This document shows, in pieces, positions 29,903-56,847 of a stretch of 64,000 nucleotides of DNA. The stretch's first letter is position 1. Each line of letters begins with the position of its first letter. Source of the stretch: Parahoeflea alexandrii (GTDB lineage: Bacteria > Pseudomonadota > Alphaproteobacteria > Rhizobiales > Rhizobiaceae); the NCBI RefSeq assembly GCF_024105735.1, contig NZ_JAAAML010000004.1, positions 248,001-312,000 on the forward strand. Direction: 5' to 3'. A program made the position numbers and the translations under genes. A model generated the notes under the pieces. The model made no database searches. It had not been told where the DNA came from and saw only the letters and a program-made list of their open reading frames with translations.

Positions 29903-29947
29903 CACTTTTTCTCCGTTGAAAAGTTTGCTTCCTCTGATGCTTTGAGG

Positions 29948-37845: not shown

Positions 37846-39597
37846 ATGTACAGTCACAAAACCGCAAGGAATTTCGCCTTCTGGCAAGCGATGTCGCCGA
37901 GCGATGCGGTCAGCCATGCCTTCCGTGCGCACGCCGCCTATGACGATCCTGCAATGTTCATCACCCTGCGAGACGAAACCGATTGCCTGGCGGATGCGAA
38001 GCGGCTGGAGGCCGAGGGGCCAGCGGGCAAACCGCTCTTCGGCCTGCCCTTCGCCGTCAAGGACAACATCGACGTGGCCGGTCTTCCGACCACGGCAGCC
38101 TGCCCGGATGCCAGATATGTGCCAACCGTGTCTGCCTTTGCGGTCGCACGGCTTGAGGCGGCCGGAGCCATCTGCATCGGCAAGACCAATCTCGACCAGT
38201 TTGCCACCGGCCTGGTCGGTGTGCGCTCGCCCTACGGCGTGCCGCGCAACAGCATCCGTGAAGACCTGATCCCGGGCGGGTCGAGTTCCGGTTCGGCCGT
38301 TGCCGTCGGCGCCGGTATCGCCGCGTTCTCGCTCGGTACCGACACGGCGGGCTCGGGCAGGATTCCCGCCGGGCTCAACGGGATTGTCGGGCTCAAGCCG
38401 AGCCTTGGCATGCTGTCGGCAACCGGCATGATGCCCGCCTGCCGGACGCTCGACACCATCTCGATCTTCGCCGCAAGAACCGCGGATGCAGCACGTGCCG
38501 CCTCGGTGGCACAAGCCTATGACGCGGCCGATTTCATGTCGCGTCAACTTCCCGATGCGGGCGTTTCCGCGCCGGGCAAGTCATTCACCGTCGGCGTACC
38601 GCGGCGTGATCAGCGGCAGTTCTTCGGCGATGCGGCCGCACAGGCCGCCTATGAGGCCGATCTTGAGACCCTAGCCGCACTCGGAGGCGAGATCGAGGAG
38701 ATCGATTTCGAACCGTTCCATGCCGTGGCCCGGCTGCTTTATGAAGGTCCGTGGGTGGCCGAACGCTATCACGCGGTCCGCGCTTTGATCGAAAGCAAAC
38801 CCTCGGCGCTGCATCCGGTCACCCACAAGATCATCAGCGGCGCCTCGAAAATCTCCGCCGTGGACACCTTCGATGCGATCTACAAGCTGGCCGACATGAA
38901 ACGGCAGGTCGCACCGGTGATCGAGCGGCTCGACTGTTTCGCCGTGCCGACGTTGCCCGCGGCCTACACCGTAGCCGAAGTCGAGGCCGATCCGGTACAG
39001 CTCAATTCCAACCTCGGCACCTACACCAATTTCGTCAACCTGCTTGACATGGCGGGGATCTCGGTTCCGGTCGGGACACGGTCCGATGGCCTGCCCTCAT
39101 CGCTTACGCTGATCGGCCCAGCGGGATCGGATGCCTTTCTTGCCGGGGTTGGCCAGAGGCTCGAAAGCGGTGTGATCGAGGCAAACGAGATTGCTTCCCG
39201 TCCAGGCGAAATCCTGATCTGCGTCGTCGGCGCGCATTTGAGCGGAATGCCGCTCAACCATGAACTGACAAGCCGCAAGGCTCGGCTGGTCGCCGCAACC
39301 CGCACCGCCCCCGACTACGCGCTCCATGCGCTTTCGGGCACAGTCCCGCCAAAGCCCGGCCTGGCGCGGGTCAAGCCCGGCAACGGCGTGTCGATTGAAG
39401 TGGAGGTCTGGGCACTGGATGCGGCCGGTTTCGGCAGTTTCGTTGATGGGGTGCCGGCTCCGCTTGGCATCGGCACGGTCCGGCTTGAGGACGGAACCCA
39501 GGTCAACGGTTTTATCGCCGAAGGCATCGCCATTGAAGACGCGACCGACATCTCGAGCTTCGGATCCTGGCGGCGCTATATCGCCAGCCGTTCCTGA
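37846..39597 (+). CDS. atzF: Allophanate hydrolase
   Basis: A 583-residue amidase-signature enzyme with the C-terminal domain specific to allophanate hydrolases (about 455-583: ILICVVGAHLSGMPLNHEL, VEVWALDAAGFGSFVDGVPA, PLGIGTVRLEDG). The catalytic triad is Lys72 (FAVKDNIDVAG), Ser146 (PGGSSSGSA) and Ser170 (DTAGSGRIPAG); spacing equals that of AtzF (98 and 24 residues). It hydrolyses allophanate toward ammonia and CO2. No biotin-dependent urea carboxylase is nearby, so the allophanate comes from biuret-type chemistry encoded by the facing operon. Its 3' end overlaps the convergent GntR gene by 22 bases. Confidence 0.92.
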   Translation: MYSHKTARNFAFWQAMSPSDAVSHAFRAHAAYDDPAMFITLRDETDCLADAKRLEAEGPAGKPLFGLPFAVKDNIDVAGLPTTAACPDARYVPTVSAFAVARLEAAGAICIGKTNLDQFATGLVGVRSPYGVPRNSIREDLIPGGSSSGSAVAVGAGIAAFSLGTDTAGSGRIPAGLNGIVGLKPSLGMLSATGMMPACRTLDTISIFAARTADAARAASVAQAYDAADFMSRQLPDAGVSAPGKSFTVGVPRRDQRQFFGDAAAQAAYEADLETLAALGGEIEEIDFEPFHAVARLLYEGPWVAERYHAVRALIESKPSALHPVTHKIISGASKISAVDTFDAIYKLADMKRQVAPVIERLDCFAVPTLPAAYTVAEVEADPVQLNSNLGTYTNFVNLLDMAGISVPVGTRSDGLPSSLTLIGPAGSDAFLAGVGQRLESGVIEANEIASRPGEILICVVGAHLSGMPLNHELTSRKARLVAATRTAPDYALHALSGTVPPKPGLARVKPGNGVSIEVEVWALDAAGFGSFVDGVPAPLGIGTVRLEDGTQVNGFIAEGIAIEDATDISSFGSWRRYIASRS

Positions 39598-40232
39598 ACC
39601 CGGTTGGAGAACCGCTTCCAGGCGCCCTCGACATAACCGATATGGGCGCGCATGGCCTGCTCGGCCGTATCCCGATCGGCGCGCAGGATGGCTTCGACCA
39701 CGGCGGAATGCTCGGCATGCGAGGCGGCTAGCCGGCCCGGCGTTTCGAACTGGGCGCGCCGGAACGGTTGCAGCCTCAGCCGGGTGTTGGCGGTCAGCTC
39801 CATCAGGTAGGAATTGCCGGTGCCCTCGTAGATCGCCGAATGAAACGCTTCGTTGGCAAGCGTGTAGTCCTTGCCACTGCCACTGCGAACCAGGATCGCC
39901 ATTTCTTCATGCATGGCCTGGAGGAAATGGCGCTGCCGCGTGGTCATATTGAGCGCGCTCTGTCCGGCGCACATGGTTTCCAGCTGCGCCATGACGAAGA
40001 AGATATTGGCGAGCTCCTTGTCACTTGGTTTGGCGACAATTGTCCGCCGGTGCGAAGACTGCTGCACCAGCCCGGTCACGCCAAGCTTGCGCAGGGCCTC
40101 CCGCACCGGTGTACGCGAGACGTTGAATTCTGCCGCCAGACGGGTTTCGTCAAGCGCCGTTCCCGGCTCCAGATCGCCGCTCACGATGCGCTGCGCAAGC
40201 GCATGTCGTATGGTCTCGGAACTGGTTGGCAT
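39576..40232 (-). CDS. GntR-family regulator (FCD subfamily)
   Basis: A 218-residue GntR/FCD regulator: SSETIRHALAQRIVSGDLEP, ETRLAAEFNVSRTPVREALR, then a helical ligand domain whose metal or acid-binding residues include SHAEHSAVVEAI. The start at ATG 40232 (MPTSSETIRHA) is chosen because the longer frame adds a Cys-rich stretch that overlaps the upstream intergenic region. It lies 29 bases after the AtzH-like gene, in the same direction, and so may end the BMP/biuret operon and regulate it. Its tail is antisense to the end of atzF. Confidence 0.88.
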   Translation of the reverse strand: MPTSSETIRHALAQRIVSGDLEPGTALDETRLAAEFNVSRTPVREALRKLGVTGLVQQSSHRRTIVAKPSDKELANIFFVMAQLETMCAGQSALNMTTRQRHFLQAMHEEMAILVRSGSGKDYTLANEAFHSAIYEGTGNSYLMELTANTRLRLQPFRRAQFETPGRLAASHAEHSAVVEAILRADRDTAEQAMRAHIGYVEGAWKRFSNRVQERLAI

Positions 40233-40261
40233 GGAGCGGTTGTTCCCGTGGGGACATTCGG

Positions 40262-40645
40262 TCAGGGCGTGTCTATAACACTCACATGTGCTGCTACAAC
40301 CCGCCAGCCATCGGCCATCCTCACCCATGTCTGCATCTGGCGTCCGCTCTTGCCCGGAGCTGTCTCGCGCTCGAACAGCGTAGAGGCGGTGGCGAAATCA
40401 CTTCCGTAGGTGGTTATCACCGTGCGGGAGAGCGTCCGCTCAAGTCCGGACGAAGGTCGTGCATTCCTGAAGGCGAGGATCTCGGCCGCCCCGTAGAGGT
40501 TCTCGCCACCGCCGTAGCGGATCGTGTGCTCGCTTTGCCAGAACAACTCGTCGAGCACCACCACGTCATTGCTGGTCAAAGCCTTCTCGTAGCGGGCAAA
40601 GACAGCCATCACCTCGGCATGCACCTTTGGGTCATTGATGATCAT
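40262..40645 (-). CDS. atzH: AtzH/HpxZ-like protein (1,3-dicarboxyurea decarboxylase family)
   Basis: A 127-residue SnoaL-like alpha+beta barrel protein of the DUF3225 family that holds HpxZ (oxalurate catabolism) and Atz[41 protein letters not shown] and [20 protein letters not shown] are characteristic. AtzH decarboxylates 1,3-dicarboxyurea to allophanate, the step after AtzE-AtzG. It overlaps the cyclo-ligase-like gene by 4 bases. Whether it is AtzH or HpxZ in function depends on the substrate of the AtzE-like amidase. Confidence 0.8.
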
Positions 40646-41403
40646 CCGGCTGTCATCCGGTCGCGCAGATCGCGAAGGAACGGAATGGTTTCGAACTGGT
40701 CGTCCTGAACGAAATCCCAGGCCACGCCCCTTGGCCGCGGGGAGGTGTTGCCGGTGACGATCAACTCCTGTTCGGTGGCGACGAAATCGAGCGGGGAATC
40801 GTGGGCCATCATGAAAACCTTGCTGTCGGGCACCAGCTGCGAGGAATGGACCGTGGTCGCCATCGGCGTGTCCGGCCCGATGATACCAAGCTCGCGGAAT
40901 ATCCCGGTCTCCAGATCGGCAAAGCCCGCGCCCTTGCCGGTGCGTCCGCCCTGACGGCTGACCGCGACGGAACCGACAATGCAGAAATCAAGCGGCTCGA
41001 CCTCTTCAAAACCGATCCGCTCGCCATGCATCATGTAGCCTTCCGAGGTGGCGGCGAGCTCGAAGGAGACGCCCCTTTCGATCAGGACCTTGGGGTCGAT
41101 GCGGAGATAGGGAAACTCCCGGGTCAGATAGGGCACCGGTGCATAGAGCATCTTGCCCTCGTAGAGCGCCCTGAGCCGCAGCGGGATCTGCGGCGGATCG
41201 GGATTGCACTTGACCGTTTTCGCACGCTTCCATTCCTCCGTCTGGGCCAGATGCCAGGCGGCCTGGTCAGCGCCGATGAAGTTGGGGATATGGCTCCAGG
41301 TCGGCCCCATCGCGTGACCGCCGTTTTCCAGCTGATCCCAGACCTCGCCGCGCACCGCATCCTTGTTCTCGTCGCGGCCGGACCATTTGCCCTGCTTGCT
41401 CAT
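40642..41403 (-). CDS. 5-formyltetrahydrofolate cyclo-ligase-like protein
   Basis: A 253-residue protein resembling the MTHFS/MTHFSD-like cyclo-ligase family: [73 protein letters not shown], and a [13 protein letters not shown] segment equivalent to the GxGxGYYD loop that binds phosphate. The housekeeping enzyme makes 5,10-methenyl-THF from 5-formyl-THF with ATP; this one is divergent and longer. It overlaps both neighbours by 4 bases inside the AtzE/AtzH block, so it is an integral part of the pathway. It could act on a formyl group or be an ATP-dependent ring-modifying enzyme. Confidence 0.7.
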
Positions 41404-42812
41404 ACTGCTTTCTCCTTCAGCGTTGCTACGGGTGCGGAGACATGGCCATTTTCCTCGAGCCACGCCGCAACCCGCAACGCGATGTCCTCCCGCCACGGTG
41501 CCGCTATGATCTGAACCCCGATCGGCAGCGGGCTTCCCTCAAGCCAAACCGGCACCGAAACCACCGGCAGGCCAATGAAGGATATCGGCTGGGTAAAGAT
41601 ACCCAGATTGGGCCGGACCGGCAGCTCCTTGCCGCCAAGCATGAAGGTCTTCTGGCCGATACGTGGCGCGACACAAGGGGTGGCGGGTGCGATCAGCACA
41701 TCGACCTCTTCGAACAGCGCCTGCATCTGCGCGCGAAACAGGCTGCGGAACTTCTGCGCCTTGGTCACCCAGGCGCCCGGAATCATCGCTCCGGCCAGAA
41801 GCCGGTCGCGCACATCCGGGTCATAATCGGCATGCCGTGTCCTGAGCCGATCAAGATGCAGCGATGCCCCTTCGGCCATGGTGATCAGATAGGCGCTGGC
41901 CCGGGCCAGGGCTGCATTCTCGATGGGCAGAGTCTGGCTCACGCCCAGCGCCGTGCAGATCTTTGCCACGGCGTCAAAGGCTTCCTGATGACCGCCTTCC
42001 TCGAAGAAACCTCCTGCCTTGGCGATCCGCAGGCCGTCGATAGCCGTGCTGGCCGTCAACGTCACAGGCGGGTCAATGCGGTCGGTGCACACCGGATCAA
42101 CCGGATCGGGCCCGGTCATTGCATTGTAGGACAGCGCCAGATCGACGGCGGAGCGGGCCAGCGGTCCGAGGTGATCGAGGCTCGCGACAAACGGGAACGA
42201 ACCGCTGCGGGACAGCCGGCCGTAAGTGGGCTTCAAGCCGAACAGACCGCACAGCGACGACGGCACCCGGATCGAACCGTTGGTGTCGGAGCCAAGCGTC
42301 AGCGGCACGAACCCGGCGGCGGCTGCCGCACCCGATCCACCCGACGAGCCGCCGGTCATGTGTTCGGGCGCGTGCGGATTGCGTGACGGCCCGTCATGAT
42401 AGTTCTCGCCGGTGAAGTCATAGGCATATTCGCCCATGTTGAGCGCACCGAGCAGAATGGCGCCGTTAGCCTCGAGCCGCTCGATCAGGACCGCATCCCT
42501 GGAGGCCGGCGCGAGATCCCGGTTGATCTTCGACCCCGCCAGGGTGGCGATGCCTTTGATATCGAAGAGATTCTTGACAGCGAACGGGACACCGGCAAGC
42601 GGACCGGGATCCTCACCGCGCTTGATCATGGCATCGATGCCGGCTGCCCTCGCCCGTGCCCGCTCATGGGCGACATGGGTGAAGGCGCCGATAGCGCTAT
42701 CATGGGCGTCAATCCTGGCCAGGCATGCCTCGACCACCGTACTTGCCGAAACCTCTCCGCTGCGCACCGTCTCGGCGATTTCCGCTGCTGTCGCGATAGT
42801 CCAGTCGGTCAT
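41400..42812 (-). CDS. atzE: AtzE-family amidase (1-carboxybiuret hydrolase large subunit type)
   Basis: A 470-residue amidase-signature enzyme. The triad is Lys80 (PFAVKNLFDIKG), Ser156 (TGGSSGGSGAAAAAG) and Ser180 (SDTNGSIRVPSSLCGLFGLK). MGEYAYDFTGENYHDGPSRN and FPFVASLDHLGPLARS are the specific AtzE/HpxY signature. AtzE with AtzG converts 1-carboxybiuret to 1,3-dicarboxyurea; HpxY with HpxX acts in oxalurate breakdown. The AtzG-type partner overlaps its start by 4 bases. AtzE is also known from cyanuric acid pathways, but no cyanuric acid hydrolase is present here. Confidence 0.88.
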   Translation of the reverse strand: MTDWTIATAAEIAETVRSGEVSASTVVEACLARIDAHDSAIGAFTHVAHERARARAAGIDAMIKRGEDPGPLAGVPFAVKNLFDIKGIATLAGSKINRDLAPASRDAVLIERLEANGAILLGALNMGEYAYDFTGENYHDGPSRNPHAPEHMTGGSSGGSGAAAAAGFVPLTLGSDTNGSIRVPSSLCGLFGLKPTYGRLSRSGSFPFVASLDHLGPLARSAVDLALSYNAMTGPDPVDPVCTDRIDPPVTLTASTAIDGLRIAKAGGFFEEGGHQEAFDAVAKICTALGVSQTLPIENAALARASAYLITMAEGASLHLDRLRTRHADYDPDVRDRLLAGAMIPGAWVTKAQKFRSLFRAQMQALFEEVDVLIAPATPCVAPRIGQKTFMLGGKELPVRPNLGIFTQPISFIGLPVVSVPVWLEGSPLPIGVQIIAAPWREDIALRVAAWLEENGHVSAPVATLKEKAV

Positions 42813-42997
42813 GGCTTGAACACCGGTGCAGGTTCTGCCTCGTCATCGAGCGGCAGCGCCAAAAGCCCAGCTGCGATACCGCGCGCGGCAACCAGGTGGG
42901 CGACAATGCCGGGACGATAGGCCGGCTCATCGGGCAGACCGAGATAGGCGAGCATGCTCCGGGCAATCGCGTCCGGGTCAAATTCATCCTGTGTCAC
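42809..42997 (-). CDS. atzG: AtzG-like small subunit (DUF4089)
   Basis: A 62-residue helical protein: [20 protein letters not shown], then [20 protein letters not shown]. Members of this family (AtzG, HpxX) bind AtzE-type amidases in the way GatC binds GatA and are needed for stable activity. It overlaps the amidase gene and the hydrolase gene on either side by 4 bases each. Small genes of this kind are easily missed; overlap and family match support it. Confidence 0.85.
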
Positions 42998-43674
42998 GCG
43001 GAAACCTCCTCTGTCTCGAACGCCACAGCCAGATTGGCCAGCGGGGCGGCCCAGCCGACAATCCCGCCTTGCGCGGTGATCATCTCTATGGTGGCCGTCT
43101 TGAAGTGTTCAAAATAGCTTTCGGTGGCATCGGTGACCAGCAGGCATTCATAACCGCGGTCATTGGCTTCGCGCATTGATGTCTGCACGCAGACTTCCGT
43201 TGTCACGCCGGCAAAGACAAGATGGGTGATGCCTTCAGCCTGAAGTCTTTCGTGCAGCCCGGTGTTCCAGAACATGCCCTTGCCGGGCTTGTCGATGACC
43301 CATTCCCCCTCGACCGGCGCCAGAGCATCAACGATCTGGTTGCCCGGCTCGCCACGCACCAAGAGCCGCCCCATCGGACCTTCCTCGCCGATCCGCACCG
43401 AGGCATTGCCGCGCGCCACCTTGCTCGGCGGGCAATCCGACATGTCGGGAAGATGGGCTTCGCGCGTGTGGATCACCGTGAGGCCCCGATTGCGGAACAG
43501 CGCGATCAGATCAGCCACCGTCGGGATGATCGCCACAAGACGCGAGACATCATTGCCGAGTGCATCACCAAAGCCACCCGGCTCGATGAAATCACGCTGC
43601 ATGTCGATGACGACGAGGGCTGTGCCCGCTTCCGGAAACCGGTAGTCATAGGGCTCTGCCTTGACGCTCCGCAT
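42994..43674 (-). CDS. Isochorismatase-fold cysteine hydrolase (second; triuret or guanylurea hydrolase candidate)
   Basis: A 226-residue isochorismatase-like hydrolase with the Asp-Lys-Cys triad Asp24 ([14 protein letters not shown]), Lys129 ([14 protein letters not shown]) and Cys162 ([20 protein letters not shown]). It differs from the clear BiuH at 45241 (for example [12 protein letters not shown] instead of [12 protein letters not shown]), so the two probably take different substrates. Known relatives hydrolyse biuret, triuret, guanylurea and N-carbamoylsarcosine. ATG 43674 is chosen; the longer frame runs into the ATPase gene. It ends with a 4-base overlap onto atzG, so its product may feed AtzE directly. 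Confidence 0.82.
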
Positions 43675-43678
43675 GGTG

Positions 43679-45244
43679 TCAGTGCCCCGCCATGTATTTG
43701 CCGATAGTGTTGCGGTCGGTCTCGTCGATTGGCGCCTGGTAGGTGATCTGCCCGCCCGACATGACCGCCACCCGGTCTGAAAGCTCGAGGATTTCATCGA
43801 GATCCTCCGACACCAGCAGGATCGCCGCCCCCTTGTTGCGCTGATCGATGAGCTGCGCCCGGATCTCCGCGACCGAGGCGAAATCCAGCCCGAAACAGGG
43901 ATTGGCGACGATCAGCACATTCACGTCGCCCGAAAGTTCCCGGGCCAGGATGGTTCTCTGCACATTGCCGCCGGAAAGGTTCTCGATCGGCGTCTCTGCC
44001 GATGGCGTCTTGACGTGGTACTTGTCGATAAGTCTTACGGCATTGTCCCGCATGGCAGCCGGTTTCAGCCACCAGCCGATGCTGGCCATCGGAGCCTTGT
44101 CGAAACTGCGGAAGGCGATGTTTTCGGACACGCTCATGCGTTTGACGGCGGCGTTTTTCAACGGCTCCTCGGGCAGGCCGAAGACTTTCAGATCGGCGAA
44201 ATCCTTCCGGGTCGCGTCAAAGCGCCGGCCGTTTACAATCACGGCACCACCGGCAAGGCTGCGCTGACCGGCCAATGCTTCCACCAGTTCCGACTGGCCG
44301 TTGCCTGACACGCCGGCGATGCCGACGATCTCGCCCCCGCGGATCTTGAGATTGACGGCATCGACCGCCCGCATGCCTTCATTGTCATCGACGCTGAGGC
44401 CGGCGATCTCAATCGTGCTCTTGGGTTCGACCCTCGCCAGTCGCGGCGCCTTTTCGCGCATCTGCGCCTCGCCGATCATCATTTTCGACATGTCGTCGGT
44501 GCTCAGGTCGTTTACCGATCCACTGCCTGCCAGTTTGCCGCGCCGCAGAACCGTGACCCGGTCGGCAAAGGCATTCACCTCGCGGAACTTGTGGGTGATC
44601 ATCAGTACAGTGATATCGCCGGCGCGCGCCATGTCGTGCAACAGGCCAAGGATCTCGTCGGCTTCACCCGGCGTGAGCACCGATGTCGGCTCATCAAGGA
44701 TCAGGAAGCGCTGGTTGAGATAGAGCTGCTTGAGGATTTCGAGCTTCTGCTTCTCGCCCGCCGACAAATCGGCCGCGACCGTATTGAGCGGAACCCGGAA
44801 CGGCATGCGTTCCATGAAGGCCTGCAGCTCTTCCTTTTCTTTCGCCCATTTGATCACGGCGGGCGCATCGGCGCGCGATATCACCATGTTTTCCGCGGCG
44901 GTCAGACAGGGCACAAGCGTGAAATGCTGATAGACCATGCCGATGCCGGCGGCCTGCGCATCCGCGGGCGCCTTGATGAGGACTTCGCGATTGTCGACCA
45001 GCAATTGTCCGCGGGTCGGCTGGTAGAAGCCCATGATGCATTTGACCAGCGTCGACTTGCCCGCACCGTTTTCGCCCAGAAGCGCGTGGAATTCCCCCGC
45101 ACCGACCTTGATCGAGACATCATCAAGGGCGACCAGCGAGCCGAAGACCTTGGTCATTGACACGGTTTCGAGCGAGAACGCGCCGGTTCGTCCACCAGCC
45201 ACCGGATGGGACGATAGATCCTCCGGGAGAGCCAACGCGGTCAT
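43679..45244 (-). CDS. BMP-type ABC transporter ATP-binding protein (two ABC domains)
   Basis: A 521-residue double ATPase of the simple sugar/nucleoside group. The first Walker A is [17 protein letters not shown], with [20 protein letters not shown] and [20 protein letters not shown]; the second domain has the reduced loop [14 protein letters not shown] and [19 protein letters not shown]. It powers the importer whose two permeases and binding protein are encoded at 46985-50200. It is wedged between two hydrolase genes, 4 bases from one and overlapping the other by 4. Confidence 0.92.
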
Positions 45245-45957
45245 GCCATCTGCTCCAGCGCGTCGAGCACGATGGCGCTGGTGGCAACCGCGCCGAACAC
45301 ACCGCCCTGCATCTTGATCATGTCGATGGCGGCGAGATGGTTTTCGCGCTTGGTGGCACCACAGCCATCCTCAACCATCAGGCATTCGAAGCCGCGATCG
45401 TTGGCCTCGCGCATGGTGGTGTGGACGCAGACATCGGTGGTGATGCCGGTCAGGATGATGTTGCGGATGCCCTTGACGTGCAGCAGCATTTCCAGGTCCG
45501 TGGCGCAGAACGAGCCCTTGCCCGGTTTGTCGATGATAGGCTCGCCCGAAATCGGAGCCAGTTCATCGATGATCTCCCAGCCCGGCTCACCCCGCACAAG
45601 AATACGTCCGCATGGGCCGGGATCGCCGATGCCGGCGCCAATGCGCTGCGAGCGCCAGCGCTTGTTGGCCGGCAGGTCCGACAGATCGGGGCGGTGGCCT
45701 TCGCGGGTGTGAATGACCGTCATGCCCTTGGCGCGCGCCGCATTCAGCAGCGAGCTGATCGGTCCAATCGGTGCGCGGGTGAGAGACAGGTCATAGCCCA
45801 TCTTGTCGACATAGCCGCCCGGACCGCAGAAATCGGTCTGCATGTCGATGATTATGAGGGCGGTGTTGGCGGCGCTGAGGTTGCCGTCATAGGGCCAGGG
45901 ATAGGGATCCGCCTGCACCGGACCATCGGCCACGACGGCTGCGGACACAGCATTCAT
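45241..45957 (-). CDS. biuH: Biuret amidohydrolase (isochorismatase fold)
   Basis: A 238-residue hydrolase very like the rhizobial BiuH proteins: [40 protein letters not shown] (Asp38), [39 protein letters not shown] (Lys144) and [20 protein letters not shown] (Cys177). BiuH hydrolyses biuret to allophanate and ammonia, and the allophanate goes to AtzF encoded nearby. It overlaps the ATPase gene and the formamidase gene by 4 bases each. Identification rests on remembered family signatures. Confidence 0.82.
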
Positions 45958-46973
45958 TCAGCCGCCTCCCCGAGCTTGGTTTCGCCATAGCGCCGGGTCG
46001 GACGCTCGAAGCCGCAGGAGGTGCCGTCGGTGTGAACCACCTCGTCTTCCCAGGGCAGCCGGTAGGTGCCCGCCACCATGTCCTTCATGAAGGTATAGGG
46101 ACAATCCTGCGCGCCGCCGAGAACTGCGGTGTAACCGCGATGGCCGAGCTGGTAGATGTTGTTTTCGACCGACCAGTGCTTGCGTGCCTCGCGCACCAGG
46201 TCGGGGCGCACCTCAGCGGTAATGATCTCGTCGACACGGCCGGATGTGCCGTGGGCGAGCACGGTGCCATCGAAATTGACGATCATGCCCTCGCCCATGG
46301 AATCAAAGGTACCGTCCGATCCGCACATGCAGACATTGGCGGTGACCATCAGATTGCTGAACGAGTTGGAAAGGTTGGTGAAGCGCCAGCTGTCGCGGAT
46401 CGGCGCGGTGTAACCTGCGGTCCTGAGCATGATCTCCGCGCCCTTGTAGGCGCATTCCCGCGCCATCTCCGGGAACATGCCGTCATGGCAGATGATCAGC
46501 GCCAGCTTGCAACCCTTCGGACCGTCGATCACCGGAATGCCGAGATCGCCCGGCTCCCAGGGCTCGACCGGAACCCAGGGGTGGAGCTTGCGGTAGTAGA
46601 GCTGCACCTCGCCCTGATCGTCGATGACGATGCCGGTATTGTAGGGATTGCCGCCCGGATTGTATTCCATGATCGAGAAACAACCCCAAATCGAATTGTC
46701 GATGCAGGCCTGCTTGAAGGCTGCGACCTCCGGTCCGTCCATCGACACCATGATCTCCGGATTGGTGTCCATCGACAGGCCGTGCAGCGCATATTCAGGA
46801 AACACCACGAGATCCATCGTCGCCATGTTGCGCCGCGCCTTGCCGACCATGGCAACGATCTTCTCGGTCTGCCGGGCAAGATCATGCCGGGTCTTGATCA
46901 GCGGCAGCTGCAATTGGACAACGCCGATGACGACGCCGTTGGGAGTCTTGTTCAATCCGCCAAGTGCGCTCAT
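45954..46973 (-). CDS. amiF: Formamidase (nitrilase superfamily)
   Basis: A 339-residue nitrilase-superfamily enzyme of the formamidase type. It begins [20 protein letters not shown], as in AmiF, and its triad is Glu60 ([10 protein letters not shown]), Lys129 ([14 protein letters not shown]) and Cys162 ([16 protein letters not shown]). The length matches AmiF (about 335). AmiF converts formamide to formate and ammonia. ATG 46973 is chosen on family length; the frame upstream runs into the permease gene. Its place between an importer and BiuH suggests that formamide, or a formyl-N compound, is produced from the imported substrate. Confidence 0.88.
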
Positions 46974-46984
46974 GCTTTCGTCTC

Positions 46985-47902
46985 CTATTTCGCGATGGAT
47001 AGTTCGCCCGGCGCCGCGCGGGCCGAGTTGCTTCCGGTTGCGGCAACCATGATGAAAAGTGTCAGGATGTAGGGCGCCGCATTGAAGAAGTAGTAGCCCT
47101 GGCTGATGCCGACGGACTGCAGTGCCGGGCCAAGCGCGCCGGCGGCGCCGAACAAAAGGGCTGCGAGGATACAACGCAGCGGGTTCCAGCGCGCGAAGAT
47201 CACGAGGGCTACCGCCATCAGGCCCTGGCCCGAGGACAGACCCTCGTTCCAGCTCCCAGGATAGGACAGCGAGAGAAACGCCCCGCCGATTCCGGCGAGA
47301 AAGCCGCCAGCCGCGGTCGCCAGGATCCGCACCTTGATCGGGTTGATGCCCATGGCACGGGCGGCGGGCTCGGAATCACCGGTCATGCGGACGACCAGGC
47401 CGACGCGGGTGTTGGCCAATGCCCACCACATGACGATCGCGATGAGAATGCCGACGATGAAGAGCGGGTTGATTTCAAGCGCCTGCTGAAGTGCCGGGTT
47501 CGACGCCCAGCCGCCAAGCGGCAGGCTTTCGAGCCGCGGCGCAGAGGGCTGGATGTAGGGCTTGCCGAAGAAGAAGGCGACTCCGATGCCGAACGACATC
47601 ATGGCAATACCGACGGCAATGTCATTGACCTTCTTGAGGCTGCAGATGCTGCCATGCATCAGGCCGAGGAAGACGCCGGAAAAGCCGGCTGCAAGAACGC
47701 CGAGCCAGGGTGAGCCGGTGTGAAAGGAGATGGCGTAGGCAACCATGGCGCCGAGCACCAGGTTGCCCTCGAGCCCGAGATTGATGCGGCCGGATTTTTC
47801 GGTGAGCGTTTCACCCAGCGCCACGAAAATGAACGGGGTCGAGACCCGTATGGCCCCGCCGAGCATGGCGATCAGAATGGTGGTAAGGGCTTCGGCCGTC
47901 AT
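46985..47902 (-). CDS. BMP-type ABC transporter permease (second)
   Basis: A 305-residue permease (BPD_transp_2 family) with about eight hydrophobic helices and the segments GETLTEKSGRINLGLEGNLV and VNDIAVGIAMMSFGIGVAFF. These are typical of the permeases of nucleoside/BMP-type importers. It overlaps the other permease by 4 bases and is 11 bases before the formamidase gene. Confidence 0.92.
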   Translation of the reverse strand: MTAEALTTILIAMLGGAIRVSTPFIFVALGETLTEKSGRINLGLEGNLVLGAMVAYAISFHTGSPWLGVLAAGFSGVFLGLMHGSICSLKKVNDIAVGIAMMSFGIGVAFFFGKPYIQPSAPRLESLPLGGWASNPALQQALEINPLFIVGILIAIVMWWALANTRVGLVVRMTGDSEPAARAMGINPIKVRILATAAGGFLAGIGGAFLSLSYPGSWNEGLSSGQGLMAVALVIFARWNPLRCILAALLFGAAGALGPALQSVGISQGYYFFNAAPYILTLFIMVAATGSNSARAAPGELSIAK

Positions 47903-49008
47903 GTCCGCTCCGTGCTGATTTTGGGCTGGAAGATCGCGAAGCGGCCGTAGAGGCTGTCGCTGGCCAGCAGCACCACGAAGATGATGCCCTGCAGCACCAG
48001 TGCCGTTGCGTCGGGCATATCCATCCGGCGCTGGATGAGACCGCCCGAGGCCTCAATGGCGCCGAACATGATCGCCACAGGCACGATCATCAGCGGATTG
48101 TGCCGGGCCAGGAACGCTACCAGAATTCCGGTGAAGCCGTAGCCGGCGACCAGCGAGGCATTGGCCTGGCCATGAATGGCGGCGACTTCGAAATAGCCTG
48201 CGAGACCGGCGCAGGCGCCGGCAATGGCCGAGCAGACAACAATAAGAGTGCCGACGGGCAGCCCCTGGGCGAGTGCCGCGCGGGGATTGCCACCGGTGAC
48301 ACGGGCGGCAAATCCGAAAGTGGTCCGCGACATCAGGACCTGCAGGGCCACGGCCAGGACCAGGCCGAAGACAAGGCCCCAGTGCACATCGGTGCCTGGA
48401 ATGTTGCCGACCATGTAGTCCTTGCCGATCGGCATGGTGGAGGGCTTGTTCTGGGACGCCGGGTCGCGCAGGGCGCCCTCGACGAAGAAGTTCATGATGG
48501 CGATGGCGATGTAAGTAAGCAGCAGGGTCGAGATGGTCTCGTTGACGCCGCGCGAGTGCTTGAGCCAGCCGGCAATGGCATTCCAGGCGCCGCCGGCGGC
48601 CATGGCAATGAGCACCATCAGCAGCATCGTCAGATAGACCGGCGCCTCGGCCGAGACGAGCGGAATGGCGAGCGCGGCCGCGGCAAAGCCACCGATCACC
48701 AGCGCGCCCTCGGCACCGATCATGACCAGGCCGATGCGCGCCGGGATGGCAAAGGCAAGTCCGGTCAGGATCAGCGGCGTGGCACGCTGCAACGTGTTCT
48801 GGAGCGAGAACGAGGAGCCGAAGCCACCGCGCCAGACCAGCTCGAAAAACTGTAGCGGGCTCTTGCCCAACAGCGTCAGGAACACCGAAAAAATGATGGC
48901 CGAAGCAACCAGGGCTCCAAGCGGTATGGCTACCGCCTCGATCGAAGCGCGGATGCGGGCAGTATCATAGGCGGGAGGTGTGGCGAACGACGTCTCTGCT
49001 TGTGCCAT
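47899..49008 (-). CDS. BMP-type ABC transporter permease (first)
   Basis: A 369-residue integral membrane permease of the BPD_transp_2 family. LVWRGGFGSSFSLQNTLQRA, ATPLILTGLAFAIPARIGLV and MIGAEGALVIGGFAAAALAI are the hallmark stretch, followed by NETISTLLLTYIAIAIMNFF. Together with the permease encoded next it forms the heterodimeric channel. The start at 49008 is 76 bases after the binding-protein stop, a gap that contains a perfect hairpin. Confidence 0.92.
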   Translation of the reverse strand: MAQAETSFATPPAYDTARIRASIEAVAIPLGALVASAIIFSVFLTLLGKSPLQFFELVWRGGFGSSFSLQNTLQRATPLILTGLAFAIPARIGLVMIGAEGALVIGGFAAAALAIPLVSAEAPVYLTMLLMVLIAMAAGGAWNAIAGWLKHSRGVNETISTLLLTYIAIAIMNFFVEGALRDPASQNKPSTMPIGKDYMVGNIPGTDVHWGLVFGLVLAVALQVLMSRTTFGFAARVTGGNPRAALAQGLPVGTLIVVCSAIAGACAGLAGYFEVAAIHGQANASLVAGYGFTGILVAFLARHNPLMIVPVAIMFGAIEASGGLIQRRMDMPDATALVLQGIIFVVLLASDSLYGRFAIFQPKISTERT

Positions 49009-49042
49009 GCCTGATCACGATCATTTCCGAAGGCAAACAAAT

Positions 49043-49072
49043 CGGGCTGCGCAGGTTTTTCCGCGCAGCCCG
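49043..49072 (-). terminator. Perfect hairpin after the BMP binding-protein gene
   Basis: A 10-base perfect inverted repeat (CGGGCTGCGC, loop AGGTTTTTCC, GCGCAGCCCG) lies just after the binding-protein stop and before the permease genes. Probably a partial terminator or mRNA stabiliser giving more binding protein than permease. Confidence 0.6.
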
Positions 49073-49084
49073 GCGACAGGTCGG

Positions 49085-50200
49085 TCAGGTGATCGAGCCG
49101 ATAACGCCCTCAAGCAGGTAGTTCATGCCATCGAGAACCGGATCGTAGTTGTCGAAGGTCTTGTCGAGGACCAGATTGCCCTGGTTGTCCTTGAGCGGGC
49201 CGACATAGATCGGCTTGCCTTCCTTGAGGCCGGCGATTGCCGCATCGGCTGCGGCGATGGCTTCCGGCGTGGCGCCGGCACCGTAGGCGGTGTTCTTGAC
49301 CATGTCATTGTGGTAGCCGCCGACGACCACGTTCGGCAGGGTTTCACCCTTGGCGAGCATATCGGCATACATCGAGTAGATGGTTTCCCACTTGTACTCC
49401 GCGCCGGTGATGAAGCCCTTGGGCGCCAGTGCCGCCTGCGAGGCATTGTGACCGCAGCTCTTCACGCCGCGGCCTTCGGCGGTCTCGATGACCACCTTGG
49501 GACCGTCGACATGGCAGGTGAGCACGTCGCAGCCCGCATCCACGAGAGCGTTGGCAGCTTCGGCCTCGCGCACCGGCAAAGACCAGTCACCGGTGAAGAT
49601 GACCTGCACCTCAACATTCGGATTGACCGAGCGTGCGCCCAGCAGCACCGAGTTGATGTTGGAGAGCACTGTCGGGATCGGCTTGGCCGCGACAAAGCCG
49701 ATCTTGTTGGTTGTCGTGCTCAGGCCTGCGGCCACGCCATCCACATAATGAGCCTGGTTGAGGTAGCAGAAGTAGCTGCCCAGATTGGCCGGGTGCTTGT
49801 CCTCGCTCCACAACGGCGCCGCGTGACGGAACTGGACGTCGGGATACTTGTTGGCGAGATCGATCATGAACGGCTCGAAATAGCCGAACGAAGTTCCGAG
49901 GATCAGGTTTGCTCCGTCGAGGTTGATCATCGATTCCATCGACTTGGAGACAGAATCGGTCTCTGGAACGTTTTCCTCTTCGATAACGGTGACATTGTCG
50001 GTCGACTTGAGAATCTCCATCGCGACCGCGTGCGCCTGGTTCCAGCCGAAATCATCGCGCGGACCAACATACACTGCCCCGAGCACTACGCCGTCGGCGG
50101 CTGATGCAGCCTTGATGAAAGGCATCGGCAGCGCCATTGCCGCGATGCCGGCAGCGCCGGTCTTCAAGATCGAACGCCGTGAAATCTGTTTTGTAGCCAT
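49085..50200 (-). CDS. BMP-family ABC transporter substrate-binding protein with a Tat signal
   Basis: A 371-residue basic membrane protein (BMP/PnrA) family binding protein. The leader carries a Tat motif (SRRSILKTGAAGIAAMALPM) and the mature part begins GVVLGAVYVGPRDDFGWNQA, a typical ligand-loop sequence. DLANKYPDVQFRHAAPLW and LNQAHYVDGVAAGLSTTTNK follow. BMP proteins mostly bind nucleosides and purines, and some bind other small N-containing compounds. Tat export is uncommon for a binding protein and implies folding before export. First gene of the 50200-to-39576 operon. Confidence 0.9.
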   Translation of the reverse strand: MATKQISRRSILKTGAAGIAAMALPMPFIKAASAADGVVLGAVYVGPRDDFGWNQAHAVAMEILKSTDNVTVIEEENVPETDSVSKSMESMINLDGANLILGTSFGYFEPFMIDLANKYPDVQFRHAAPLWSEDKHPANLGSYFCYLNQAHYVDGVAAGLSTTTNKIGFVAAKPIPTVLSNINSVLLGARSVNPNVEVQVIFTGDWSLPVREAEAANALVDAGCDVLTCHVDGPKVVIETAEGRGVKSCGHNASQAALAPKGFITGAEYKWETIYSMYADMLAKGETLPNVVVGGYHNDMVKNTAYGAGATPEAIAAADAAIAGLKEGKPIYVGPLKDNQGNLVLDKTFDNYDPVLDGMNYLLEGVIGSIT

Positions 50201-50495
50201 GTCCAGTTCCTTTGCTGGCTTTGCGAACCCCTGCTATGGCCGGATCTGGGAGACACCCGGTTGCCAGTGGTTTTGCAAGACGCATGCCAGTTCGAACAGA
50301 TTAGTTTTTGTTATATTTTACAAATAGATAGGGAAACCACCTCGAGAGGGCGGAATCCGGAAGGACGAAATCAGGGCAGCGGAAGGCGAAATTATGAACA
50401 AAATATAAATAGCGCTCATTTTTTGAGCATAATTTCTCTCATTGCATACATTAGCGCCCTGAAGGCGGTCCGCGTCTGGAATCCACGCCTCCCTC
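50201..50495. promoter_or_regulatory. AT-rich promoter region of the BMP operon
   Basis: This 295-base gap between two minus-strand genes is markedly AT-rich (for example 50390-50455) and holds no gene. A short inverted repeat GCTCA-TTTTT-TGAGC covers 50414-50428 and TTGCATACATTAG lies near 50441. This is the likely promoter and GntR-binding region for the operon starting at 50200; the exact promoter boxes are not clear. Confidence 0.5.
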
Positions 50496-51458
50496 TCAGG
50501 CGAGACCGCTCGCCTTGTAGGTCGGATTCAACCTGCTCTCCAGGTAGTCATCACCCCGAATGGGGTCATAGCGCGCCGGGTTGCCGGGCCCGCTGCAGGT
50601 CGGCAGACATTCGACGATCGCGTCGGGGTTCGGGTCAAGGAAGAAGGCGATCGAGTAACGCTCGCGGCCGGCCGGGCTGACAACCCGGTGGGGCGTCGAG
50701 ACATAGGTGTCGTTGGTCCATCGCATCAGGCAATCGCCGATGTTGCAGACAAAGGCGCCGGGAATGTAGGGCGCCTTGATCCAGTCGCCGGTTCGCGTGC
50801 GCACCTCGAGACCGCCGACTTCATCGGTCAGAAGCAGCGTCACGCAGCCATAGTCCGTATGCGCACCCGCCCCCATCTGGCCGTCTTCAACGACGCCACG
50901 CTGCGGCGGATAATGCAACAGCCGCAGCGTGGCCAGCGGCCGGTCGAGCTTGTCCTCGAAATGGTCCGCATCCAGCCCGAGTTCGGTGGCAAAGGCCATA
51001 TGCAGGCGACGGCCGATATCCAGTGCGGTTTCAAAGTAATCGAGCATGGTCTCGCGGAACCCCGGCTGGTCCGGCCAGAGATTGAGAGCCCGGAACCGGG
51101 CTCCGGTGACAAGTTCGGGATCGTCTGCCGCAAGCTCAAGGCCGATGTTGAAAGCCTCCTTGAGGTCCGCCGGCTTGGACGGATCCAGCGCCTCGCCGCG
51201 CATCGGCACATAGCCGCGGTTGCCGGTGGAGGGAGAGATCTCGACCTGTTTCTTGACGTCTTCGGCAAGCGCGAAGAAATCGCGAGACGTAGCAAACAGG
51301 GCTTCAATGTCGTCGAGCGAAAGGCCGTGACCCTTGATGTAGAAAAAGCCGATGCCGCGACAGGCGTCGCCGATCAGGGATGCGGTCCTTGCAATCTCTT
51401 GCCGATCCATACCGTAGAGGCTCTTGATGTCGATGACTGGAATATTCTGTTCAGACAT
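50496..51458 (-). CDS. Fe(II)/2-oxoglutarate-dependent oxygenase (isopenicillin N synthase-like)
   Basis: A 320-residue IPNS-like oxygenase. The iron ligands are His200 and Asp202 (GAHTDYGCVTLL) and His257 (VSTPHRVVSP); Arg267 and Ser269 (RYSIAFFLDPN) bind the co-substrate carboxylate. It hydroxylates or demethylates a small molecule with O2. Only 9 bases separate it from the deaminase-like gene upstream, so the two enzymes probably act in one pathway. Bacterial relatives include enzymes acting on purines, pyrimidines and N-alkyl groups; substrate unknown. Confidence 0.9.
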   Translation of the reverse strand: MSEQNIPVIDIKSLYGMDRQEIARTASLIGDACRGIGFFYIKGHGLSLDDIEALFATSRDFFALAEDVKKQVEISPSTGNRGYVPMRGEALDPSKPADLKEAFNIGLELAADDPELVTGARFRALNLWPDQPGFRETMLDYFETALDIGRRLHMAFATELGLDADHFEDKLDRPLATLRLLHYPPQRGVVEDGQMGAGAHTDYGCVTLLLTDEVGGLEVRTRTGDWIKAPYIPGAFVCNIGDCLMRWTNDTYVSTPHRVVSPAGRERYSIAFFLDPNPDAIVECLPTCSGPGNPARYDPIRGDDYLESRLNPTYKASGLA

Positions 51459-51467
51459 GGGTTTTCC

Positions 51468-52802
51468 TCAACTGAACCGCCGGGCGGCGGCGGAATGTTC
51501 TGCGATCAGTCCTGCGATATCAAGCCCGATGATGTGTCCGTCCATGACCCGCCACTCGCCCGCAACCATCACCCGGTCGGCGCGATTGGCGCCGCAATGG
51601 ACCAGGGCCGCGATCGGGTCGTGATTTCCGGAAAAGCGCATTTCATCGAGCGTGAACATGGCCAGATCGGCCTGTTTTCCGACCGCAATCTCGCCAATGT
51701 CACTGCGCCCGAGACACCGCGCCGAGCCGGTGGTCGCCCAGCGCAAGGCGTCGCGGTGGGTGATCCGTTCGGCCGACTTGTAGCCCAGCCGGTTGACCAT
51801 CAGCGCATGGCGCACCTCCTCCATCAGATTGGAGCTGTCGTTGGAGGCCGACCCGTCGACGCCGAGGCCGACCGGGCTGCCCGCCGCCTCGAGATCCAGC
51901 GTCTTGCAGAAACCTGAAGCCAGCACCGCATTCGATGTCGGACAATGGCAGACGCCGACACCGTGCCTGCCGAGCTTTTCGCAATCCTCGCAGGTGAAGT
52001 GAATTCCGTGGGCCAGCCAGACCCGGGGCTGAAGCCAGTTGCAATCCTCGAGCCAGTCGATCGGCCGGTAGCCGAAGGTCTCGATGCAGAAAGCCTCTTC
52101 GTCCACGGTCTCCGCCAGATGCGTGTGCAGCCGGCAGTCATAGGTCTCGGCGAGGACAGCGCTTTCGCGCATGACATGTCTCGACACGTTGAAAGGGGCG
52201 CATGGGGCGAGCGCGATCTGGATCATCGCGCCATCTGAGGTGTCGTGATAGCGCTTGAGCACGCGCTCGCTGTCGGCAAGGATGGTGTCGTCATCCTGAA
52301 CGATGTGGTCGTCGGGGATGGCGCCATCCTTTTTCGACAGCGACAGCGAACCGCGCGTCACGGTGGCGCGGATGCCCAGAGCCTGCGCTTCCTGCACCTC
52401 GATGTCGGTGGCATCCTCGAGTCCGTCATAGGACATGTAATTGTGGTCCATCGCCGTGGTGCAGCCCGACAGCAGCAGTTCGGCATAGGCCAGCCGGGCG
52501 CCGACACGGAACATGTCGCGGTCGAGCCTGCTCCAGATCGGATAGAGCGCCTGCAGCCAGGGAAACAACTCCTTGTCGCGCGCCGCCGGGTGAGCGCGGC
52601 ACAGGGTCTGGAAAAAATGATGATGGGTGTTGATCAGTCCGGGAATGATGACATGCCGGGATGCATCGACGGTTTCATCCACCTCGGCACGCGGTGTCGC
52701 GCCTGCGGCTACGAGTTCGACGATACGGCTGCCGGAGACAACGATGCCGCCGCCGGCATTCTCCGCCAGGATCGCCAGCGGGTTCTTGATCCAGGTGTTC
52801 AT
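51468..52802 (-). CDS. 8-oxoguanine deaminase-like amidohydrolase (AtzB/TrzA superfamily)
   Basis: A 444-residue metal-dependent deaminase. The metal site includes His60 and His62 (PGLINTHHHFFQTLCRAHPA), RLHTHLAETVDEEAFC, WLAHGIHFT and LGVDGSASNDSSNLMEEVR. These segments closely match the 8-oxoguanine deaminase group (urate from 8-oxoguanine) and its relatives AtzB and isocytosine deaminases. ATG 52802 (MNTWIKNPLAIL) is chosen because GGGG precedes it and the family begins with a short TWI segment. It shares an operon with the IPNS-like oxygenase and is divergent from the Liv-type importer. Confidence 0.82.
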   Translation of the reverse strand: MNTWIKNPLAILAENAGGGIVVSGSRIVELVAAGATPRAEVDETVDASRHVIIPGLINTHHHFFQTLCRAHPAARDKELFPWLQALYPIWSRLDRDMFRVGARLAYAELLLSGCTTAMDHNYMSYDGLEDATDIEVQEAQALGIRATVTRGSLSLSKKDGAIPDDHIVQDDDTILADSERVLKRYHDTSDGAMIQIALAPCAPFNVSRHVMRESAVLAETYDCRLHTHLAETVDEEAFCIETFGYRPIDWLEDCNWLQPRVWLAHGIHFTCEDCEKLGRHGVGVCHCPTSNAVLASGFCKTLDLEAAGSPVGLGVDGSASNDSSNLMEEVRHALMVNRLGYKSAERITHRDALRWATTGSARCLGRSDIGEIAVGKQADLAMFTLDEMRFSGNHDPIAALVHCGANRADRVMVAGEWRVMDGHIIGLDIAGLIAEHSAAARRFS

Positions 52803-54264: not shown

Positions 54265-54272
54265 GCCTCTGA

Positions 54273-54304
54273 GCCGCGGACGCTTGCCTTGTGGCGTCCG
54301 CGGC
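54273..54304 (+). terminator. Hairpin after the Liv-type binding-protein gene
   Basis: A perfect 11-base inverted repeat (GCCGCGGACGC, loop TTGCCTTGTG, GCGTCCGCGGC) follows the stop codon by 9 bases, and a pyrimidine-rich, T-rich tract comes after it. This is the best terminator-like element in the window and probably acts as a partial terminator before livG. Confidence 0.7.
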
Positions 54305-54332
54305 ATCCTTTCTTTTCTTCCATGGGTGCGCC

Positions 54333-55097
54333 ATGACACAGATGCTTCTGGAAACGGAAGGCCTGACCGTCCGCTTTGGCGGCCATGTGGCGGTCGACGC
54401 CGTCAGCTGCGGCTTCCGCGCCGGTGAACTCACCGCCATCGTCGGACCCAATGGCGCCGGCAAGACCACTTATTTCAATCTCATCTCGGGACAGATTGCG
54501 GCTTCAGAAGGCACTGTCCGGCTGATGGGCGAGGACGTGACCCGCGATCCGGTGGCTAGCCGTTGCCGCAAGGGGCTGGGGCGCGCTTTCCAGCTGACCA
54601 ACCTGTTTCCCAATCTCACCGTTCTCGAAAATGTCCGGCTGGTGATCCAGGCAAGGCGCAGGATGGGTTTCAACCTTTTGAGCATGGCGACATCCCACCG
54701 AGAATTGACGGTTGCGGCGATTGCCATTCTGGAACGGGTCCGGCTGCATCCGCTCGCCGAGCAGAAGGTCGGCGGGCTCAGCCACGGCAACCAGCGCAAG
54801 CTCGAGGTCGCCATCCTGATCGCACTCGATCCGGTGGTCTACATGTTCGACGAGCCGACCGCCGGCATGAGCGTCGACGAGGCCCCGGTGGTGCTCGACC
54901 TGATCGCCGAACTCAAGGCCGAGAAGGACCGCACCATCCTGCTGGTCGAACACAAGATGGATGTCATCCGCTCGCTCGCCGACCGGATCATCGTGTTGCA
55001 CAACGGCGCGCTTGCCGCAGACGGCGATCCGGCAACGGTGATGGCCTCGGACGTGGTGCAGGAAGCCTATATGGGACGGGACCTCGCCGATGTCTGA
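54333..55097 (+). CDS. livG: Liv-type ABC transporter ATP-binding protein LivG
   Basis: A 254-residue ATPase. Walker A is GPNGAGKTTYFNLISG; LGRAFQLTNLFPNLTVLENV is the LivG signature; GGLSHGNQRKLEVAILIALD and VYMFDEPTAGMSVDEAP hold the signature and Walker B motifs. ATG 54333 is chosen; the frame upstream would add residues inside the hairpin region. It overlaps livF by 8 bases. Confidence 0.93.
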   Translation: MTQMLLETEGLTVRFGGHVAVDAVSCGFRAGELTAIVGPNGAGKTTYFNLISGQIAASEGTVRLMGEDVTRDPVASRCRKGLGRAFQLTNLFPNLTVLENVRLVIQARRRMGFNLLSMATSHRELTVAAIAILERVRLHPLAEQKVGGLSHGNQRKLEVAILIALDPVVYMFDEPTAGMSVDEAPVVLDLIAELKAEKDRTILLVEHKMDVIRSLADRIIVLHNGALAADGDPATVMASDVVQEAYMGRDLADV

Positions 55098-56846: not shown

Positions 56847-56847
56847 C

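Follow-up and report, generated by a model that had tools for sequence, protein, structure and literature searches.

A putative import-and-mineralisation operon for condensed ureas in Parahoeflea alexandrii, with a linked formamidase and a 5-formyltetrahydrofolate cyclo-ligase paralogue

A 64,000-nucleotide stretch of the 4.9-Mb genome of Parahoeflea alexandrii (contig NZ_JAAAML010000004.1; G000:C9:248001-312000 in our numbering), hereafter the window, was analysed in this study, which revealed a block of 12 minus-strand genes predicted to serve the uptake and breakdown of condensed ureas such as triuret and biuret, both of which occur as impurities of fertilisers. Each gene named in the block is backed, at the coordinates given in Table 1, by an open frame as well as a match to its family. 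In their order on the minus strand, these genes encode a BMP-type substrate-binding protein, two permeases, a formamidase, the biuret hydrolase BiuH, a transporter ATPase, the predicted triuret hydrolase TrtA, AtzG, AtzE, a protein resembling 5-formyltetrahydrofolate (5-formyl-THF) cyclo-ligase (hereafter the cyclo-ligase-like protein), AtzH and a GntR regulator, with the ATPase gene placed between those of BiuH and TrtA. Four-base overlaps occur at seven of the 11 junctions, a count made with inner start codons, in preference to the longest open reading frames (ORFs), for three genes, those of the cyclo-ligase-like protein, TrtA and the formamidase. AtzG, AtzE and AtzH, all recognised at family level, form a module within one cluster, and the cyclo-ligase-like gene sits between the last two. 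The gene of the allophanate hydrolase AtzF lies on the plus strand, tail to tail with that of the GntR/FCD regulator and overlapping it by 22 bases; genes of a 2-oxoglutarate (2OG) oxygenase and a deaminase-type amidohydrolase lie upstream. This layout bears out the initial annotation, made from the letters and their open frames, which had described one minus-strand block of these genes faced by AtzF. The block is probably controlled by its own GntR protein.

Table 1. Genes and features of the block and its immediate surroundings (positions in the window)
Feature	Coordinates	Strand	Basis
AtzF, allophanate hydrolase	37846..39597	+	TIGR02713 756 bits, cut-off 511
GntR/FCD regulator	39576..40328	-	Pfam FCD, GntR
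AtzH / HpxZ	40262..40645	-	NF033625 199 bits, cut-off 135; 2rcd 166 bits, AtzH 6bjt 153 bits
5-formyl-THF cyclo-ligase paralogue	40642..41403	-	Pfam PF01812 58.6 bits, cut-off 27
AtzE, carboxybiuret hydrolase subunit	41400..42812	-	NF006631 710 bits, cut-off 461; 6c62 494 bits
AtzG	42809..42997	-	Pfam AtzG-like 41.8 bits, cut-off 24
TrtA, triuret hydrolase (predicted)	42994..43674	-	6xix 321 bits
ABC transporter ATPase, two ABC domains	43679..45244	-	Pfam ABC_tran, 2 stretches
BiuH, biuret hydrolase	45241..45957	-	NF050097 419 bits, cut-off 370; 6azo 394 bits
Formamidase, AmiF type	45954..46973	-	NCBIfam PRK13287 572 bits, cut-off 406
ABC permease	46985..47902	-	Pfam BPD_transp_2
ABC permease	47899..49008	-	Pfam BPD_transp_2
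G+C-rich hairpin, 12 pairs (10 G-C)	49043..49072	-	between binding-protein and permease genes
BMP-type substrate-binding protein	49085..50200	-	Pfam Bmp 122 bits; TAT_signal
2-oxoglutarate/Fe(II) oxygenase	50496..51458	-	Pfam DIOX_N + 2OG-FeII_Oxy
8-oxoguanine-deaminase-type amidohydrolase (putative)	51468..52802	-	NCBIfam PRK08203 635 bits, cut-off 532; longest ORF start 52862

The gene between those of the ATPase and AtzG had been listed as a second isochorismatase-fold hydrolase; the fold stands, and its product can now be named as TrtA, a predicted triuret hydrolase. It matches crystallised TrtA (6xix) better than biuret hydrolase 6xjm (212 bits) or BiuH 6azo (185 bits), is 67% identical to TrtA over 215 residues, and agrees with it at all 12 published positions compared, including the catalytic Asp24, Lys129 and Cys162 as well as Phe35, Asn41, Glu160, Gln202 and Ile205. 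The positions of Phe35, Asn41, Glu160 and Ile205 have been discussed as discriminating TrtA from biuret hydrolase (PMC7948467, in part), and the neighbouring BiuH carries Tyr, Tyr, Asp and Val there. The same product reaches 245 bits against the BiuH family, below the cut-off of 370, and the match scores together with the residues rule out a second BiuH or an unnamed isochorismatase. Triuret, which had been one of several guessed intermediates, now has a particular gene assigned to it.

BiuH, AtzE, AtzF, AtzH and the formamidase all pass their curated cut-offs. The reactions of TrtA, BiuH, AtzEG and AtzF have been described on homologues, and AtzH is regarded as a likely decarboxylase (PMC7948467, PMC6219798; both in part). 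By analogy, TrtA would take one ammonia off triuret, yielding carboxybiuret, from which two branches would lead to allophanate: in the first, AtzE and AtzG would deaminate carboxybiuret to dicarboxyurea, which AtzH likely decarboxylates; in the second, carboxybiuret would lose CO2 to give biuret, the substrate of BiuH. The remaining ammonia and CO2 would be released by AtzF. This core is the described triuret/carboxybiuret/biuret pathway and is not new, so that of the initial proposal of a new pathway for a nitrogen-rich ureide, the catabolic unit is retained (its genes are co-conserved, as set out below) and the novelty of the core is not. Like the triuret pathway of Herbaspirillum sp. BH-1 and Rhizobium leguminosarum 3841, the block holds TrtA, BiuH and AtzF together and converges on carboxybiuret, whereas AtzG/E and AtzH acting on carboxybiuret are added, and the formamidase, the cyclo-ligase-like gene, the oxygenase and the deaminase are extra (PMC7948467, in part). 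AtzG, AtzE, AtzH and AtzF are shared with the cyanuric acid operon atzDGEHF of Pseudomonas sp. ADP, but here AtzD lies elsewhere in the genome, and TrtA, BiuH and a BMP importer are added (PMC6219798, in part). The triuret clusters of nitrifiers (bmpA-nupABC, trtA, trtB, biuH, atzF) likewise have a BMP importer adjoining trtA, biuH and atzF (PMC12625717, in part).

The importer may take up a flat, nitrogen-rich compound. Its binding protein is nearest, among solved structures, to 3s99 and to AtzT (6pi5), and AtzT binds guanine and 2-hydroxyatrazine (PMC6834077, in part). The pocket is lined by W53, S104, F105, T177, N181, W206, H230 and D232. Among 57 BMP proteins of at least 50% identity, the Ser-Phe pair, Asn169 and Trp194 of the AtzT-like pocket are kept throughout, and the opposite side carries Trp or Tyr in 52 and a gap in five. 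The aromatic sandwich, Ser97, Phe98 and Asn169 are thus common to AtzT and the window protein, in which Tyr45 has become Trp, Glu165 Thr, Asn218 His and Asn220 Asp (PMC6834077, in part). The guanine-reading Glu165 is replaced in all 57 proteins (by Thr177 in that of the window), and Asn218 and Asn220 are His and Asp in every one. The loss of this Glu argues against guanine import; the residues suggest a flat ligand other than guanine, possibly triuret, biuret, cyanuric acid or urate.

Conservation of the whole block, which had been proposed as a check, was followed in 105 rows, namely the window together with L021, L022, L036-L114 and L128-L150, leaving out L023-L035 and L115-L127. A family scan with the cyclo-ligase-like protein had yielded 154 relatives, of which the best 80 loci were kept. 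A row was counted as an operon if it held a BMP protein together with BiuH or TrtA, using our own cut-offs of percent identity and 45% length and scoring presence rather than order. The gene set recurs in many genomes: 57 of the 105 rows qualified, although these are not independent, since the window is one of them and at least two contigs, judged by their length to be shared by L022/L068 and by L079/L132, are counted twice. Within the 57, the ATPase was present in 57, BiuH in 56, TrtA in 54, AtzH in 43, AtzE and the formamidase in 38 each, and AtzD in 10; gene order is nearly constant by inspection. Rows from cultured environmental relatives include L040 (Oricola indica JL-62) and L038 (Zhengella mangrovi X9-2-2), in the second of which AtzG/E are missing. 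The cyclo-ligase-like gene appears in 44, a biased figure because most loci were fetched with it as query. The counts of the oxygenase (at least 24) and of relatives of the deaminase (at least seven, namely L037-L039, L047, L049, L143 and the window) are lower bounds because loci end near those genes. A small ChrR-type cupin (PF12973 in L140, L140:9194-9547), seen also in L139, L146, L147 and L149, occurs in five of the 57 rows, all without the cyclo-ligase-like gene and AtzE, and is a candidate for the carboxybiuret decarboxylase TrtB.

In 297 genomes drawn from the order, both the formamidase and the cyclo-ligase-like gene are systematically linked to TrtA, of which one best match per genome was taken. 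A TrtA-like match at E 1e-60 was found in 88 genomes. Close cyclo-ligase-like genes, counted at 53% identity or more (27 of the 37 genomes above the E-value cut), were always accompanied by such a match, and 25 of the 27 lie within 5 kb of trtA; for the close formamidase, present in 39 genomes, the match was found in 38, and the distance is at most 5 kb in 27 and at most 15 kb in 30. The closest relatives of the cyclo-ligase-like gene are in Hoeflea and Oricola. The idea that these two genes belong to the block was thus upheld, but the formamidase is not peculiar to it: in three plasmid records, from Rhizobium, Pseudomonas and Enterobacter respectively, the backbone has the formamidase between permease and BiuH, and the annotated stretch contains no cyclo-ligase-like gene. 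On the Enterobacter plasmid pENT-576 (L148:2802-12425), the run atzF-BMP-permeases-formamidase-isochorismatase-ATPase-isochorismatase (TrtA)-GntR lies between two IS1 transposase genes. A TrtA-like match at E 1e-60 occurs in 244 plasmid records in total (77 from Escherichia; 127 predicted conjugative); 88 of these matches are below 60% identity, and some may be other hydrolases.

Curated cut-off and Glu-Lys-Cys motifs point to an AmiF-type formamidase. Its nearest solved relatives are the formamidases 5g3o and 2dyu, and E60, K129 and C162, which we take to be the catalytic residues, fall within the aligned motifs. The cyclo-ligase-like protein, presumably COG0212-like, belongs to PF01812 and has the cyclo-ligase fold, and it is not an orthologue of the housekeeping 5-formyl-THF cyclo-ligase (5-FCL). 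Its AlphaFold model (predicted local distance difference test score 93.5) matches 5-FCL/MTHFS folds with a best E-value of 2.6e-9 and a template modelling score of about 0.5 by query length, and by profile comparison the protein aligns over residues 3-220 with the 5-FCLs of the genome itself (E 3e-7). It is the weakest of the three PF01812 proteins in the genome (59 bits, against 117 and 101), has no NCBIfam match, and gave only a chance match (E 0.19) in a sequence search of the PDB. With 5-FCL and the COG0212 paralogues it shares the fold, the N-terminal Lys/Arg and the RxGxGxG loop, and in the alignment with the genome's 5-FCLs it also keeps the C-terminal HD..LD motif, whereas the regions surrounding its NPDPPQ and GFADLE stretches are unlike the two other PF01812 proteins. 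Lys14, Arg18, Arg154, Gly156, Lys157, Gly158 and Gly160 are invariant in 47 aligned family members; we assume that they form the ATP-site motifs. The likeliest role of the protein is ATP-dependent chemistry on a non-folate substrate. A thiamin link of this family was set aside, as an NMT1/THI5-type transporter gene was recognised by Pfam next to the gene in L034 only, and that relative is distant (29%); in L085 and L152, transporters resemble this type by eye or record annotation only, which makes no case for this operon.

How these genes vary together was examined at the 49 trtA loci of 277 bits or more, out of 88, of which the other 39 may not be TrtA. For the oxygenase, 22 of 23 places at 50% identity or more were used (G484, a genome without a TrtA match, was left out); for AtzE, 27 matches near the listed trtA loci were used, from one or two per genome in 75 genomes. 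The formamidase and the cyclo-ligase-like gene vary independently, with 14 loci holding both, 11 each holding one, and 13 neither (Fisher p=0.57), which weighs against a single formyl pathway using both and weakens the initial view of them as one formyl-handling pair. Presence of the cyclo-ligase-like gene is associated with that of the oxygenase (13 both, 12 and three with the first or second alone, 21 neither; p=0.005) and with that of AtzE (20, 5, 7, 17; p=0.0005). The formamidase is associated with neither (p=0.76 for the oxygenase, p=0.09 for AtzE), and the oxygenase and AtzE gave p=0.015.

Outside triuret operons, the cyclo-ligase-like gene adjoins an oxygenase gene, or lies one gene from it, in L051-L054, L069 and L085, where the oxygenases are 38-41% identical to that of the window, and it stands beside a PotD-like or BMP-type importer in L055, L058, L078, L087, L151 and L152 (PotD-like partly by eye). 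In the tree of the family, the triuret members do not fall together, and the starred branches call for two or more changes, which may be gains or losses; the group labels are our own, with L068 (which has BiuH but not TrtA) placed under triuret, and 15 of the 47 rows are ungrouped. Because of the co-variation, the non-triuret neighbourhoods and the tree, we read the cyclo-ligase-like protein as a partner of the importer and the oxygenase rather than of the formamidase. Two plasmid loci, L151:7774-14500 (Pseudosulfitobacter) and L152:7874-14991 (Roseinatronobacter), show a compact LysR - cyclo-ligase-like - BMP importer arrangement with no urea-type enzymes annotated adjoining. A gammaproteobacterial run, L085:2195-10744, encodes an amidase, a gamma-glutamyltransferase-type enzyme, a class V aminotransferase, an allantoate amidohydrolase, a 2OG oxygenase, an alpha/beta hydrolase and the cyclo-ligase-like protein.

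Taken together, the block is best explained as an import-and-mineralisation operon for condensed ureas such as triuret and biuret, a reading to which we give a probability of about 0.78. In this operon, the formamidase would be a linked accessory that collects formamide from formylurea or formylbiuret peeled at the amide end by TrtA and BiuH. Such peeling of formyl-capped ureides would explain the formamidase without the cyclo-ligase-like protein, which may act, probably with ATP, together with the 2OG oxygenase on an upstream heterocycle. Several observations weigh against this reading. Neither the formamidase nor the cyclo-ligase-like gene is near 13 of the 49 strong trtA loci, so that both are dispensable for the core. 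Class-wide, few genomes carry the cyclo-ligase-like gene (a match in 20 of 385), and besides the window's own only two copies reach 59% identity or more (about 60%). The operons of these two, L021 and L022/L068, keep the importer, the formamidase, BiuH and the cyclo-ligase-like gene, with TrtA and AtzE absent from the 20 kb seen, and triuret may therefore not be the sole substrate. The adjacent putative 8-oxoguanine deaminase and the oxygenase are not explained by triuret alone. In addition, the co-variation test ignores kinship, uses chosen cut-offs of 277 bits and 15 kb, and scores genes on other contigs as absent.

A second possibility, which we consider unlikely but keep in view, is that the block serves mainly as the lower pathway of cyanuric acid breakdown, finishing what an AtzD elsewhere begins. 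The initial annotation had reported AtzD as not present, which is true of the window at most: a single AtzD-family match was found in the genome at G000:C9:238882-239940 (within G000:C9:238867-239967, L124:10867-11967), left of the window by 8 kb and about 48 kb from the block. It scores 519 bits against the cyanuric acid hydrolase equivalog (cut-off 360), a pass that argues against barbiturase even though the surroundings look pyrimidine-like by eye, and it is 53-56% identical to the AtzDs of the ten related operon rows. There, AtzD is located just upstream of the ATPase gene; its place inside such operons puts carboxybiuret at a hub, and the AtzGEHF set repeats the Pseudomonas sp. ADP arrangement (PMC6219798, in part). 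In P. alexandrii, however, AtzD is not in the same operon as the block and belongs to a separate cluster, adjoined by genes of an amidohydrolase-superfamily protein that reaches no NCBIfam cut-off, an isochorismatase-fold protein whose best match, RutB, is far under its cut-off, and an allantoinase/dihydroorotase-type protein; nor would cyanuric acid breakdown need TrtA. The preferred operon for condensed ureas can accommodate this AtzD, through which cyanuric acid could enter the same pool of carboxybiuret.

The initial annotation favoured an imported azapyrimidine or ureide opened to N-formylbiuret, with the formamidase and the cyclo-ligase-like protein handling the formyl group. Both genes are indeed linked to trtA, they occur together without TrtA in L021 and L022/L068, and by our own reasoning formamide would remain once formylbiuret had been peeled from the amide end. 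TrtA also has a small activity on formylurea, its best side substrate (0.07 U/mg, compared with 24 U/mg on triuret; PMC7948467 Table 2, in part). The two genes nevertheless fail to co-vary, the three plasmid operons have the formamidase and no cyclo-ligase-like gene in the annotated stretch, and a triuret gene is present, which together leave this pathway improbable.

We also give little credence to the formamidase and the cyclo-ligase-like gene being passengers unrelated to triuret use. Each is absent near 24 of the 49 strong trtA loci, and the cyclo-ligase-like family occurs in other operons too, the distant member beside the NMT1/THI5-type transporter gene among them; yet their distances to trtA given above and their position inside an operon with 4-base overlaps argue for a connection, as do the two or more changes in the tree between triuret and other settings. 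An oxidative purine route, in which the deaminase converts 8-oxoguanine to urate and the block's oxygenase turns urate into triuret inside the cell, is similarly doubtful. The amidohydrolase passes its curated cut-off as a putative 8-oxoguanine deaminase (best solved relatives 3hpa, 370 bits, and 7ww2, 345 bits) and lies adjacent to the oxygenase (closest solved structures 9ovh at 239 bits and 6jyv at 222 bits). The relative in L085, with its allantoate amidohydrolase, gamma-glutamyltransferase-type enzyme and 2OG oxygenase, would fit this route, and chemical oxidation of urate yields triuret (PMC7948467, in part). Against it, the oxygenase is near only 16 of the 49 trtA loci, the guanine-reading Glu is absent from all 57 binding proteins, and the genome also has a gene for 2-oxo-4-hydroxy-4-carboxy-5-ureidoimidazoline (OHCU) decarboxylase, a mark of ordinary urate breakdown. 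Least probable is that the operon forms the lower half of an enzymatic purine route excising carbons 5 and 6, an idea drawn from our own atom mapping (the urate chain N1-C2-N3-C4-N9-C8-N7 corresponds to triuret, and the xanthine chain N1-C2-N3-C4-N9-C8 to N-formylbiuret), in which urate would come from the deaminase, dismantling of the ring would fall to the oxygenase together with the ATP-dependent cyclo-ligase-like protein, the chain would then be peeled by TrtA and BiuH, and formamide derived from C8 of xanthine would go to the formamidase.

Other features of the window were also recorded. The hairpin between the binding-protein and permease genes may dampen downstream expression; the scan that yielded it found 12 terminator-like sites against 8.5 expected from shuffles. 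A scan for sigma-70 sites was set aside, since it found one site, fewer than the 3.3 in shuffles. At 32436-36421 on the minus strand lie genes of DabA (PF10070, 844 bits) and a NuoL-like partner below its cut-off, presumably forming an inorganic carbon pump of the DAB type, in the vicinity of AtzF with its release of CO2. Branched-chain/urea-type ABC importer genes (53089-57900, plus strand) diverge from the 8-oxoguanine-deaminase-type gene, and hydantoinase A and B genes are found with a sugar-type ABC binding-protein gene at 25123-29953 on the minus strand.

The initial annotation had stated that described biuret pathways contain neither a formamidase nor a cyclo-ligase-like protein, and searches of an open-licence library found no role described for either in such an operon. 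The words "formamidase" and "cyclo-ligase" do not occur in the main text of PMC7948467, nor does "formamid" in PMC12625717; no report was found of BiuH acting on formylurea, a word absent from PMC5806882. What is new here is the systematic linkage to this operon of the formamidase and of the oxygenase-associated cyclo-ligase paralogue, together with a modular layout to which AtzD can be added. The genes for breaking down condensed ureas are grouped in a modular import operon in many Alphaproteobacteria, which is also found on plasmids of other Proteobacteria. Two unexplained but repeatedly linked enzymes, the formamidase and the cyclo-ligase paralogue, are thereby tied to testable roles, and the operon context may provide a handle on the reaction of the cyclo-ligase-like family.

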